DNA from: Deltaproteobacteria bacterium
GTDB taxonomy: Bacteria > Desulfobacterota > Syntrophia > Syntrophales > UBA2210
Length of the DNA: 33,634 bases
Direction of reading: 5' to 3'
NCBI GenBank assembly: GCA_019313385.1
Contig: JAFDBG010000031.1
Location: 1 to 33,634, forward strand
Shown here piece after piece: positions 7,799-12,819 of the stretch. The first letter of the stretch is position 1, and each line of letters opens with the position of its first letter. The notes under the pieces were generated by a model. The model saw nothing but the letters and a program-made list of their open reading frames with translations, was not told where the DNA came from and made no database searches. Both the position numbers and the translations under genes were made by a program.

Positions 7799-7870
7799 CT
7801 TCGCGGTGTAAGGCATATGAATTGTTGAAAAGCAGGTTATGGGATTTCGAGTGCAGGGGTTGCGTTGAAA

Positions 7871-9829
7871 ATGTCACCAAAAGGCCAAAGATACAGAAGC
7901 TGGGTGGAAATCGATCTGGACAGCTTCAGACATAACTGGAACGAAATAAACAGGTTGGTGGCCTCCAGCGTAAAGGTCCTTCAGGTGGTTAAGGCGGATG
8001 CGTATGGCCATGGGGCGATTGAGATATCAAAGGCCGCTCTGAAAAACGGTGCGTACGCCCTTGGTGTCGCCAATGCCGATGAAGGGGCGCAGCTTCGGGT
8101 CGGCGGGATAGATGCACCCATTATAATATTGAGCCCTTCCACAGTTTATGAGATTGATGAAATCCTCAAATACAATCTTATCCCCTCGGTTTCAGATATC
8201 CATTTTGCGGTTGAACTCAACAGAAAACTGATTGAGAAAGATGTTCAATGTCCCGTTCATATTGAGATTGATACGGGGATGGGCAGGAGTGGGACCATAT
8301 ACAGTGACGCAATAGTCCTGATCAGGAGGATCATTGCTCTCCCCAACATAGTAGTGGAAGGGATATTCTCCCATCTCTCTGTCAGTGAACTGAAAGACGA
8401 TGAATATAATTCTTTCCAGTGGAAACTGTTTGAGGAGATTATAACAGGGTTGGAAAAAGAGGGGATACATATTCCCATAAAACACATATCCAACAGCGGT
8501 GGCGTGCTCAATTTTCCCCGGTTCAATCTGGATATGGTGCGTCCCGGGATTATGACATACGGGGTATATCCATCATCCGATACAGTTCCAAAGGCTGCTC
8601 TTATACCGGTGATGAGTTTCAGGACAAGTGTTGTAATTATCAAGGATTTTCCCGCGGGGTACAGCATAGGTTATGGCAGGTCTCATGTCACAGAAGGCCC
8701 TGCCAGGATAGCGACAATACCGGTTGGATATGGGGACGGGTACGGTTTTATCATGTCGAATCAGGGGGAGGTCCTTATACGGGGTAGAAGGGCACCCATT
8801 GTGGGGCGTATTTCCATGGATATGTGCACTGTGGATGTTACCCATATACCCGAATGCGAAACAGGCGATGAAGTTGTCCTGATGGGGATGCAGGGGGAAG
8901 AGTGCATTTCGGCCGGTGAGATTGCCGGAAAGTCCGGAACGATGGGCTATGAGATTTTGTGCGCGCTGGGCAAGAGAGCGCCTCGCGTATTTGTGAATAA
9001 AGGAGAAACCGATACTGTTGAACCAAAATTAAGAAGGATTTTTATACCGGGTGAGGAAAAATCCATTGCCAGAATTGACAATATGATACGCGGTTGTCTC
9101 CAGGCCAGAACCAGTGACATGGAATTTGCCGACGCGATTTATTATGAGATGTTTGAGACGCTTTTCGGCAGGGAAAACCGTCAGCTGGAATTGAGGATGG
9201 GGTTCAGATATGATATCAGGATAAGCGATTTCCCCGATGGAGAAAAAGGGGCCCGTGGCCCGGATGCGGATTATTTCAGGGTTACAACGCACATTGAGTA
9301 TATAAAAACACTCAGAGACAAGTTTTTCATCATAGGCTGTGCGCGGAATGACGCTCAGCTTTCGGCGCTGTTTGAGGAGGAGAAGTGCGAATACCGGTGG
9401 CTCCTCAACGGTACGGATAATCCCCTCAGAGAAGGTGATTTCAGTGTGGCCCGTGTCAGGATCAATGGCCGGGATGCGCCTGTCATCAGCGCGGAAAATA
9501 CGGACAGGGGGTATGAGGTGCTGTGCGGTGGTGGTGAACTTGAGGAATATCTGAACAAACAGGTAAAAGTGGAGATAGAGATAGAAACAAAGAAGCACAA
9601 AAGCAGTAGGATGTTTTCCGTTTACCTGGTCTATCCTACAAGGGGTATGAATATCTCATTCAATTACGAAAAGACGGAGTTGAAGAACGTGAGAGAGGTA
9701 AGTTTTTTTGCGGGAAGACACCCATATCCGGAAATAAAGATGGAGAATGGAAAATCGATAGAACTGAACATCGGCGAGGATGAGTGGGTATTTCCCAACA
9801 GCGGTGTGACTTTCATCTGGGACCTGTAA
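7871..9829 (+). CDS. alr: Alanine racemase with an unrecognised C-terminal domain
   Basis: PLP-dependent fold-type III racemase giving D-alanine for peptidoglycan, about 652 residues against a usual 360-390. The PLP lysine lies in VVKADAYGHG (Lys41). The barrel continues with HIEIDTGMGRSG and MVRPGIMTYGVYP; SIGYG carries the second-domain catalytic Tyr, followed by ATIPVGYGDGYG and GRISMDMCTVDV. The racemase part ends near residue 380 (ALGKRAPRVFVN). The remaining ~270 residues, including an ELRMGFRYDIRISDF stretch and a beta-rich end (FSVYLVYPTRG, VTFIWDL), match no family I recognise. ATG 7871 is preferred over TTG 7865; the ribosome-binding site is weak. It is followed 37 bases on by a ddl gene, as expected for D-Ala-D-Ala synthesis. 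Confidence 0.88.
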   Translation: MSPKGQRYRSWVEIDLDSFRHNWNEINRLVASSVKVLQVVKADAYGHGAIEISKAALKNGAYALGVANADEGAQLRVGGIDAPIIILSPSTVYEIDEILKYNLIPSVSDIHFAVELNRKLIEKDVQCPVHIEIDTGMGRSGTIYSDAIVLIRRIIALPNIVVEGIFSHLSVSELKDDEYNSFQWKLFEEIITGLEKEGIHIPIKHISNSGGVLNFPRFNLDMVRPGIMTYGVYPSSDTVPKAALIPVMSFRTSVVIIKDFPAGYSIGYGRSHVTEGPARIATIPVGYGDGYGFIMSNQGEVLIRGRRAPIVGRISMDMCTVDVTHIPECETGDEVVLMGMQGEECISAGEIAGKSGTMGYEILCALGKRAPRVFVNKGETDTVEPKLRRIFIPGEEKSIARIDNMIRGCLQARTSDMEFADAIYYEMFETLFGRENRQLELRMGFRYDIRISDFPDGEKGARGPDADYFRVTTHIEYIKTLRDKFFIIGCARNDAQLSALFEEEKCEYRWLLNGTDNPLREGDFSVARVRINGRDAPVISAENTDRGYEVLCGGGELEEYLNKQVKVEIEIETKKHKSSRMFSVYLVYPTRGMNISFNYEKTELKNVREVSFFAGRHPYPEIKMENGKSIELNIGEDEWVFPNSGVTFIWDL

Positions 9830-9866
9830 GGTGTCGGAGTGTTGTAATCAGGGAGAAAGTGTCTTT

Positions 9867-10925
9867 ATGGAGTTGCTGAGAGTTGGGATCATACTAGGCG
9901 GCATGTCTTCCGAAAAAGAGGTTTCGCTGAACAGCGGCAGGAATGTCTATGATAACCTGGATGGTGAAAAATATGAGAGTATCCCCATATTCATGGATAG
10001 TGATGGAAGTCTGTGGATTATACCGTGGCAGCTTGTATCTCAGAACACCACTACCGACATCTCAGAGCATCTTGAAAGGGACGCGAGGCGGATATCTTAC
10101 GAACAGCTGAAGGATGAAATAGATTTTGCCTTCATTTCCCTCCATGGAAAATATGGTGATGACGGGTGCATCCAGGGCCTTCTGGAGATCCTGGGAATTC
10201 CCTACACCGGTCCGGGTGTCCTGGCTTCCGCTCTGGGCATGGATAAGGGCGTGCAGCAGAAGATACTGAGAGCGGCGGGGATCAATGTGCCTGAGAGTAT
10301 GCTGTTCGGGGAAGATGAATGGTTAAGGGATAAAACTCGCGTCAGGGAAAAGATAGCGGAGGCCTTTGATATCCCCTTTGTCGTAAAACCTGTCAGAGAA
10401 GGGTCAAGCATGGGGGTGACCATTGTAAGAAACGAGGAGAGGATTGAGGGCGCGATGGCCGGCGCCTTCAAATGGGACAGGGATGTGCTGGTCGAGGAAT
10501 ATCTCGAAGGCGTTGAATTTTCGTGCATCGTTCTGGAAAGTGAAAATGGGCCGGGTATCCTCGGGGTTACCGAGATTCATCCGCAGAGTGATTTTTACTC
10601 ATACGATGATAAATATATGCCGGGCAGATGCAGCAAATTTACACCCCCCAGGAATATTCCTGTCAATGTTGTTGATCGAATTAAAGCGGATGTTATCAAG
10701 GCGTTTGAAATACTGGGGTTCAGATCGTATGGTCGTATAGACGGATTTGTCCTGGAGGATGGCAGGGTCTTAATTACGGATCCCAATTCGTCTTCAGGAA
10801 TGGCGCCCTCGTCTTTCTTCTTCGAACAGGCCGCGGAAGCCGGCATGCTTCCATCCATGATAATATCCGAGTTGATAGAGATCTCAATCGGAATTCACAG
10901 AGAGAAAAAGGGTCCGCTGCAGTGA
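9867..10925 (+). CDS. ddl: D-alanine--D-alanine ligase, paralogue 1
   Basis: ATP-grasp ligase of 352 residues. It keeps the equivalents of the E. coli DdlB triad: Glu17 (GGMSSEKEVS), Ser180 (KPVREGSSMGV) and Tyr250 (FYSYDDKY). Other signatures are SLHGKYGDDGCIQG at about 91 and ASALGMDK. The metal-binding end is variant: DPNSSSGMAPSS replaces the usual E-x-N-T-x-PGMT, so Glu270 is Asp and Pro/Thr are lost. A D-Ala-D-Ala product is the parsimonious call, but a related dipeptide is possible. ATG 9867 has AGGGAGAAAG upstream; the frame is open from GTG 9831 but that start lacks a site. It is followed at short distance by an outer-membrane protein gene and a second ligase. Confidence 0.85.
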   Translation: MELLRVGIILGGMSSEKEVSLNSGRNVYDNLDGEKYESIPIFMDSDGSLWIIPWQLVSQNTTTDISEHLERDARRISYEQLKDEIDFAFISLHGKYGDDGCIQGLLEILGIPYTGPGVLASALGMDKGVQQKILRAAGINVPESMLFGEDEWLRDKTRVREKIAEAFDIPFVVKPVREGSSMGVTIVRNEERIEGAMAGAFKWDRDVLVEEYLEGVEFSCIVLESENGPGILGVTEIHPQSDFYSYDDKYMPGRCSKFTPPRNIPVNVVDRIKADVIKAFEILGFRSYGRIDGFVLEDGRVLITDPNSSSGMAPSSFFFEQAAEAGMLPSMIISELIEISIGIHREKKGPLQ

Positions 10926-10950: not shown

Positions 10951-11736
10951 ATGATGAAAAAGAGTAGGCGAACGATTGTATGTACTCTGGCGGTTTTTAT
11001 TATTTTATTGATCTGTTCCGCTTCGGTTCAGGCCATTGAATTTGGAGCACGGGGATGCTGGTGGTTGCCTGAGTTTTCCGGGGATTTCAGGGTGGACAAG
11101 AACGGAATCGTGGGGACGAGCATTGATGTGCAGAGTGCTCTTGGCATAGGCGATGAAAGCTATCCCTTTGTCGAAGCCTTTGCGGGAGTTGGGGCGCACC
11201 ATATAAGCCTTACGTATATGGAGGCAGATTATTCGGGGGAAAAGACCCTCGGGGGAAACATCCAGTTTATGGGGCAGACGTACACGGCAGGGACTTTTGT
11301 CCAGTCGGATCTCCAATTCACAATGCTCGATGTGGATTATCAGTACGATATCGTGGATCTGGAAAACATCCTGGCGGGATTATCCGTGGGTATTATCGGG
11401 AAGGTCAAGTATATTGACGGTCAATTCAGTCTGAAAGACACGGCCCTTGGATTAAATGAGGAAGATTCTTTCAAGGCGCCGATTCCCATGCTCGGTCTGG
11501 GGTTACATGTGGGTATCCTTCTCGATATCCTGGAGGCGAGGGTGCGAGGAGCCGGTATCTCTTACTCAGGCAATACCTTTTATGAAGGGCTTGCCGAGGT
11601 TTCCTTCACGCCGTTCCCCTTTCTGGATATTCAGGGGGGATATAGGGTAATGAAACTTTCTGTGGATGATATCAGTGATGTGTATGCGGATATTGAATTT
11701 AGAGGCCCGTATGTAGGCCTTACGATCAGTTTTTAA
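10951..11736 (+). CDS. Outer-membrane beta-barrel-like protein
   Basis: A 261-residue protein with a clear signal peptide (KKSRR, hydrophobic VCTLAVFIILLICSAS, cleavage after VQA at about 29). The mature part has alternating amphipathic strands, Gly- and aromatic-rich, and ends in Phe (PYVGLTISF), the usual barrel-assembly signal. It resembles small eight-stranded-type OMP families without a match I can name. Translation may start at either ATG 10951 or 10954, behind GGAAAGGTGG. It lies 25 bases after ddl paralogue 1 and 18 bases before paralogue 2, so it is embedded in what otherwise is a D-amino-acid ligase module. Its function is unknown; a link to envelope assembly is inferred only from the neighbours. 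Confidence 0.72.
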   Translation: MMKKSRRTIVCTLAVFIILLICSASVQAIEFGARGCWWLPEFSGDFRVDKNGIVGTSIDVQSALGIGDESYPFVEAFAGVGAHHISLTYMEADYSGEKTLGGNIQFMGQTYTAGTFVQSDLQFTMLDVDYQYDIVDLENILAGLSVGIIGKVKYIDGQFSLKDTALGLNEEDSFKAPIPMLGLGLHVGILLDILEARVRGAGISYSGNTFYEGLAEVSFTPFPFLDIQGGYRVMKLSVDDISDVYADIEFRGPYVGLTISF

Positions 11737-11754: not shown

Positions 11755-12819
11755 GTGGAGAAAATAAAGCCCGAAAAAATGAGGGTGGGGATCATCATGG
11801 GGGGGATGTCCTCCGAAAAGGAAGTTTCCCTTGAGAGCGGCAGAAATATATTCAGCAAGGTAGACAGAAAGAAATATCTTCCCATACCTGTATTCATGGA
11901 TAGCAATGGGTTTTTTTGGGAAATACCGGTCAAGATGTTGATGAGAAATTCTACCGGAGATATCGAAAGTGATCTGGAGAATGAGGCGAAAGGGATTCCC
12001 TATGAGAAACTGAAGACTCTTGTGGATATAATATATCCGGGACTCCACGGCAAATACGGCGAAGATGGCTGTATCCAGGGACTTCTGGAGCTGCTGAATG
12101 TTCCCTATGTGGGGTCCGGTGTTCTTGCCTCAGCGCTCGGCATGGATAAATATGCCTCCAGAAAAGTCCTCGCAATGAGCGGGATAGATGTTCCCCGCAC
12201 CGTGGCTGTTTCTGCCGGGCGATGGAAAAGCGGCAGAGAGGATATCCTCAAGGAGATAGAAAACGAGATCGGCCTGCCCTGTGTTGTCAAACCTGCCCGG
12301 GAGGGGTGTAGTACCGCTGTCAGGAAGGTTTTATCGCTGGAGGATGTCTGTGACGGGGTTACAGATGCTCTTGCTTGGGACAATGTGGCGCTGGTTGAAG
12401 AATTTATTGCCGGAATGGAAGTTACATGTGGTGTTATAGGAAATGATTCGCCTGTTGCCCTTGTGCCTTCCGAAACTATACCGACGAAAGGGGTACTTTC
12501 GCTGGAAGACAAATTTCTGTATGGTCAGGGAGAGAACAAGACGCCCGCAAGATTGCCGGAGGATGTCCTGAAGGCGATACAGGATGTAGCTGTAAGGGCA
12601 TTTCTGGCTCTGGGCTTGAAGGCCTACGCGAGAATAGATATGTTTGTGCCCGGTGATGGGCGGATAGTGGTGCTTGAACCGAACAGTCTGCCTGGAATGA
12701 CGCCCTCTACAGTGCTTTTCCACCAGGCGGCGGCTTCCGGTATTACACAGACTGAACTGATCAGCAGGATTATACAATTATCTTTCGAGGCGCACTCGGA
12801 GAAAAAGGGACCGCTGTAG
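11755..12819 (+). CDS. Ddl-like ATP-grasp ligase, paralogue 2, altered active site
   Basis: A 354-residue D-Ala-D-Ala ligase homologue, about as long as paralogue 1 and clearly related (GGMSSEKEVS, LHGKYGEDGCIQG, SGVLASALGMDK). Glu21, Lys179, Lys253, Glu308 and Asn310 (LEPNSLPGMTPS) are kept. Two of the three residues of the DdlB Glu15-Ser150-Tyr216 triad differ: Cys185 (AREGCSTAV) for Ser150, and Phe254 (SLEDKF) for Tyr216. A Tyr216-to-Phe change is known to let DdlB make D-Ala-D-lactate, and Leuconostoc-type D-Ala-D-Lac ligases have Phe there. Product may therefore be D-Ala-D-lactate or another D-Ala-D-X; this is an inference. Start GTG 11755 behind CGGGAG; ATG 11779 is an alternative without a site. 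Operonic with mlaE 20 bases on. Confidence 0.82.
   Translation: MEKIKPEKMRVGIIMGGMSSEKEVSLESGRNIFSKVDRKKYLPIPVFMDSNGFFWEIPVKMLMRNSTGDIESDLENEAKGIPYEKLKTLVDIIYPGLHGKYGEDGCIQGLLELLNVPYVGSGVLASALGMDKYASRKVLAMSGIDVPRTVAVSAGRWKSGREDILKEIENEIGLPCVVKPAREGCSTAVRKVLSLEDVCDGVTDALAWDNVALVEEFIAGMEVTCGVIGNDSPVALVPSETIPTKGVLSLEDKFLYGQGENKTPARLPEDVLKAIQDVAVRAFLALGLKAYARIDMFVPGDGRIVVLEPNSLPGMTPSTVLFHQAAASGITQTELISRIIQLSFEAHSEKKGPL

Follow-up and report, generated by a model that had tools for sequence, protein, structure and literature searches.

Alanine racemase makes D-alanine, a building block of the cell wall. The enzyme is essential and serves as a drug target; in most cases, it is a simple homodimer with chains of ~370 residues. 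Racemase domains that are fused to a partner are known from the MurF-Alr fusions (NF008897/PRK11930) and from the VanT serine racemases. Domains of the type found at the N-terminus of M1 aminopeptidases (M1_N) also occur in proteins that lack peptidase activity, such as OST1 and TAF2. According to passages of two reports (PMC3245724, PMC2743695), the Lys131 site of the S. aureus racemase is frequently carbamylated, and a negative charge there is considered important; in the B. anthracis enzyme, an asparagine and a chloride take that role.

The window analyzed here is a 33,634-nt stretch of DNA from a deltaproteobacterium of the order Syntrophales. To judge from its sequence, the ORF at 7865–9829 (+ strand; 654 amino acids) encodes a complete alanine racemase plus an extra domain. 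It is a single frame with 0 internal stops, as the first-pass annotation had claimed, and it is conserved as one frame in relatives. The NCBIfam equivalog TIGR00492 (alr) matches at full length over residues 11–376, scoring 347 bits where the cut-off is 168; Ala_racemase_N (PF01168) covers residues 15–235 (7910–8572, +), and Ala_racemase_C (PF00842) covers residues 248–374 (8609–8989, +). Lys42, Arg140, Arg225, and Tyr269 are all invariant in the racemase body. From the G. stearothermophilus enzyme, we take Lys42 to be the PLP lysine and Tyr269 to be the catalytic tyrosine; in our alignment, both are present in 45/45 fused racemases and in 22/22 racemases from outside the order (20 regions plus L180 and L181; henceforth, the out-group). 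The NF008897 model scored 337 bits against its cut-off of 804, with model positions 458–821 alone matched; the protein is thus not a MurF-Alr fusion. One out-group racemase, an 866-residue frame (L197, G199:C36:186500-190700), has a long N-terminal partner that is MurF-like by appearance.

The tail comprises residues 377–653 (8996–9826, +), about 276 residues beyond the racemase, and it has two parts: the first ~64 residues are a helical connector (377–440; 8996–9187, +), and the last ~215 are beta-rich (441–653; 9188–9826, +). The tail had first been placed at 9010–9829; it is real, but that start falls about five codons late. The tail sequence used for searches and modeling comprised 276 residues (8999–9826).

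By sequence, the tail is unrecognized, as had been claimed. It has no match above chance in Pfam, NCBIfam, PHROGs, or PADLOC, and none among PDB sequences, whether a single sequence or a profile was used. The Peptidase_M1_N profile (PF17900) failed to match the tail at E ≤ 10 or any of 47 family members at E ≤ 1, and it was absent from 31/31 relatives. Aligned to 16 M1_N sequences with hhalign, the tail profile gave a probability of 0.3%, a weak negative because that profile is narrow (Neff 2.2). The weak Pfam names C2_C2CD3_N, LOC400499, and M64_N all fell under the cut-offs and were treated as chance; M64_N matched 3/47 members (best E 0.0055) and did not appear in a rescan of ten of the 47. 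A mobile or phage origin was rejected, with no match to the tail in plasmids, viral contigs, or PHROGs, as was a defense domain, with none for the tail in PADLOC. The genome itself holds no second copy of the tail at E ≤ 10. Also rejected was a separate tail protein made from an internal start: the sole invariant methionine of the tail, its residue 51, lies within a conserved helix. Among the open-licence papers listed by literature searches, no title or abstract opening describes such an extension. The tail is a sequence family that is undescribed in the libraries searched, and its predicted fold is one that is already known.

That fold emerged from structure prediction. An AlphaFold2 model of the tail, built with 47 sequences, had a mean pLDDT of 78.6 and a pTM of 0.74; tail residues 1–25 were below a pLDDT of 50, and from residue ~61 onward the model was mostly well predicted and strand-rich. 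When this model was compared with the PDB using Foldseek, the best 50 entries listed were, by title, all M1-type zinc aminopeptidases or their complexes: leukotriene A4 (LTA4) hydrolase, aminopeptidase N, ERAP1/2, insulin-regulated aminopeptidase, and others, including the EryP entry, which we count as an M1-type aminopeptidase. These best 50 had E-values of 1e-5 to 6e-5, a probability of 1.00, and TMq values of 0.32–0.37, among 151 matches at E ≤ 0.001. The low TMq may mean that the two lobes are oriented differently or that the match is distant. VIA-align 2 was run on 1000 of the Foldseek-matched chains. Among the best 50 listed, Z ranged from 9.5 to 11.3 across approximately tail residues 58–276, with 147–171 residues aligned at an rmsd of 3.2–4.0. 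The highest Z-scores belonged to 4g2a (11.3) and 3kd4 (11.2), followed by oligosaccharyltransferase (OST) entries (10.4–11.0), M1 aminopeptidases with LTA4 hydrolase (9.5–10.2), and a TFIID entry (7edx_B, 9.9). In a library of viral structures, the top match to the tail was an M1-like aminopeptidase. The matched entries share a saddle-like N-terminal fold, and the matched ranges in most chains agree with this. The last ~215 residues are thus predicted to adopt the two-lobed beta fold of the M1 aminopeptidase N-terminal domain, which is also present in OST1. The claim of an unrecognized domain, then, holds for the sequence, but the predicted fold is not a new one.

The connector, by contrast with the beta part, is poorly defined in both models. 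In the full-length model (pTM 0.57), residues 384–411 and 426–436 had pLDDT values below 50, and the five predictions ranged in mean pLDDT from 80.5 for the best to 59.5 for the worst. For these reasons, the model gives no support for docking of the tail onto the racemase.

The integrity of the fusion was assessed in 100 related genomes (own, genus, family, and order), with a tail match counted at E ≤ 0.001. The tail was present in 91/100, the full-length homologs being 47–94% identical, and in all 70 relatives with completeness ≥90% and contamination ≤5%. Ala_racemase_C occurred in 90/100, as a single copy in each. In 89 of the 91 tail-bearing genomes, racemase and tail are in frame, with 6, 9, or 12 nt (2–4 codons) between the matches; of the other two, G047 has pieces of the gene on two contigs, and in G071 the tail begins at a contig end. 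Because 89/91 are in frame and the remaining two are cut by contig ends, we conclude that the fusion is real and that the tail belongs to a conserved gene. Among the 100 relatives, we saw no racemase without the tail and no genome with two racemases; in the genomes searched, the tail was never found alone. Nine genomes have no tail match (G003, G041, G055, G074, G076, G083, G088, G089, and G098), and Ala_racemase_C is missing from them as well. Two of them are near-complete (G083, 99% complete and 6% contaminated; G088, 93% and 6%), and in these a contig may be missing or the absence may be real. Across the order Syntrophales, the fusion has been retained.

Beyond the order, the picture changes. 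The tail profile matched 11/297 genomes of a phylum sample, and all eleven are the genome itself or members of the same order; the unmatched remainder comprises 20 listed entries, starting with those of the same phylum, and 266 more. The racemase itself was found in 183/198 genomes of a phylum sample, and none of the 22 out-group racemases extends more than 13 residues beyond the racemase match. Searching 84,980 genomes for exact peptide words, a method that would miss distant relatives, yielded 97 relatives, of which 80 were kept; their titles are Syntrophales, Smithella, Syntrophus, or unspecific Deltaproteobacteria/Pseudomonadota. Within the phylum sample, the domain is restricted to the order Syntrophales; it has so far not been found in other groups, although it may occur outside the phylum.

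The tail is under purifying selection, and its connector is more conserved than the catalytic body. Conservation, taken as the mean majority-residue frequency over 45 full-length sequences, was 0.74 for racemase residues 1–240, 0.82 for 241–376, 0.85 for the connector (the most conserved part of the protein), and 0.68 for the beta part. In five same-genus comparisons, dN/dS was 0.11–0.21 for the racemase body, 0.00–0.07 for the connector, and 0.11–0.15 for the beta part; in three more distant comparisons, dS was not usable for the connector nor, in a single case, for the beta part.

The racemase body of the fused enzymes also differs from that of its relatives. Residue 133 (codon 8264–8266, +), the site of the often carbamylated lysine in other racemases, is glutamate in 45/45 fused racemases vs. 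lysine in 21/22 others of the phylum; the lone out-group glutamate belongs to L199, a long-branch entry. Glu133 lies seven residues ahead of the invariant Arg140, matching the spacing of Lys131 and Arg138 in the S. aureus enzyme. We propose that Glu133 supplies a fixed carboxylate at the carbamate position. In a phylogenetic tree, the Syntrophales racemases (15 of the 45) and the 22 others fall on opposite sides of one branch, which has an SH-aLRT support of 100 and whose stem measures 0.8 changes per column. Together, the long stem branch and the lysine-to-glutamate change suggest that the racemase itself was remodeled around the time that the module was acquired.

What does the tail do? We favor, at a probability of roughly 0.5, a putative accessory module without catalytic function, through which the cell's only supply of D-Ala is shaped or regulated. 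The two-part module would have been permanently fused to the sole alanine racemase in or before the Syntrophales ancestor. Its conserved connector would dock onto the racemase, most likely close to or at the dimer or the entry of the active site, and its beta part may serve as a binding or positioning surface, as in the M1_N-type domains of non-peptidase proteins. In this way, the module could tune how stable or active the racemase is, or how it assembles, and hence the D-Ala supply. Counting against this reading, the strong conservation of the tail is also compatible with an enzymatic or metal site. A more far-reaching form of it, which we regard as speculative and doubtful, has a module of M1_N-like fold captured once, the CO2-dependent lysine carbamate replaced by a fixed glutamate, and the module setting the supply of D-Ala by sensing a ligand (a peptide, a muropeptide, or the redox state); the result would be a new allosteric alanine racemase. 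An order whose sole racemase has a permanent extra domain, with a linker under tighter constraint than the catalytic body, would show that a fused module can control the supply of D-Ala. The glutamate at the carbamate position, for its part, is a natural experiment on the purpose of the carbamylated lysine.

The foremost alternative, which we nevertheless consider unlikely, is that the tail is a metabolon scaffold that binds the D-Ala-using enzymes Ddl and MurF and channels D-Ala to them. Two proteins of similar fold, OST1 and a TFIID subunit, are by their entry titles members of large complexes, and the genes downstream in the window are suggestive. As the first-pass annotation had stated, ddl follows closely: one D-alanine--D-alanine ligase homolog starts just after the fusion (9831–10925, +; PF07478 at 10263–10880), and a second lies further on (11755–12819, +; PF07478 at 12172–12777). 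The ORF between them (10951–11736) reads as outer-membrane-protein-like, and mlaE/mlaF-like genes, also named by reading, come after the second homolog; the order is similar in many relatives. We scored homologs of the window's two ddl genes at the 69 of 80 named loci that have at least 1200 nt downstream. A homolog lay within 800 nt on the same strand at 35/69; at 9/69 it was on the opposite strand, and 25/69 had neither, yet the fusion is kept. At L061, the next long frames resemble, by reading, signaling proteins. The link to ddl therefore holds in this window, but the fusion is not tied to ddl, as only 35/69 loci have the homolog downstream on the same strand.

We think it rather improbable that the tail is a cysteine or metal switch, in which C410, C491, C507, and C553 (span 9095–9526, +) act as metal ligands or as a redox-sensitive group and so toggle the racemase in these anaerobes. 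The first three are present in 45/45 sequences and the fourth in 96%, and the racemase body has two cysteines that are almost confined to the fused enzymes: C320 (8825–8827) is found in 43/45 fused vs. 1/22 out-group racemases, and C330 (8855–8857) in 45/45 vs. 0/22. However, the tail cysteines are scattered across the connector and three different strands with no CxxC pair, and conserved cysteines are common in anaerobes. A second enzymatic activity tied to D-Ala, such as a peptidase or hydrolase, is very unlikely. The conservation of the tail is strong, with E441, R592, W640, and W651 among its invariant residues, and its fold matches are peptidase entries; the matches, however, cover the N-terminal region of those chains, which we take to be non-catalytic. 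In the tail, direct reading revealed no HExxH zinc motif, and neither a Peptidase_M1 match nor any other catalytic Pfam domain was found there, nor was a catalytic-triad pattern recognized. Finally, an artifact in which a frameshift or misassembly joined two adjacent genes is practically negligible: one frame break does exist in a relative (L059:1011-1075, on the same contig as in G061; probably an assembly error), but it lies within the racemase, off the junction, and the in-frame junctions described above refute a frameshift or chimera. Neither a common domain by profile nor a frameshift thus accounts for the tail.

The accessory module that we favor can be set against several known systems. 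With the Peptidase_M1 N-terminal domain (PF17900) of LTA4 hydrolase and aminopeptidase N, the tail shares a predicted fold (~147–161 residues aligned, VIA Z ~9.5–10.2, Foldseek E ~1e-5), but it has no profile similarity to that family, no M1 catalytic domain, and a position at the C-terminus of a racemase. Lpg2210 (4g2a), BDI_1141 (3kd4), and OST1/ribophorin I (7oci, 6s7o) have the same predicted overall fold (Z 10.4–11.3); at 6–11% identity and with other architectures, their functions are not transferable to the tail. As for the usual alanine racemase (TIGR00492; PF01168 + PF00842), the fused form retains the complete racemase body with its four invariant residues, and it differs by 276 extra residues, by Glu133 in place of the often carbamylated lysine, and by its long stem branch. 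The models of the MurF-Alr fusions and VanT serine racemases match the protein in part. In those proteins, however, the partner is N-terminal, with the racemase at model positions 458–821 of 822 and 338–693 of 697, respectively, whereas the tail of the Syntrophales enzyme, unmatched by either model, is C-terminal.
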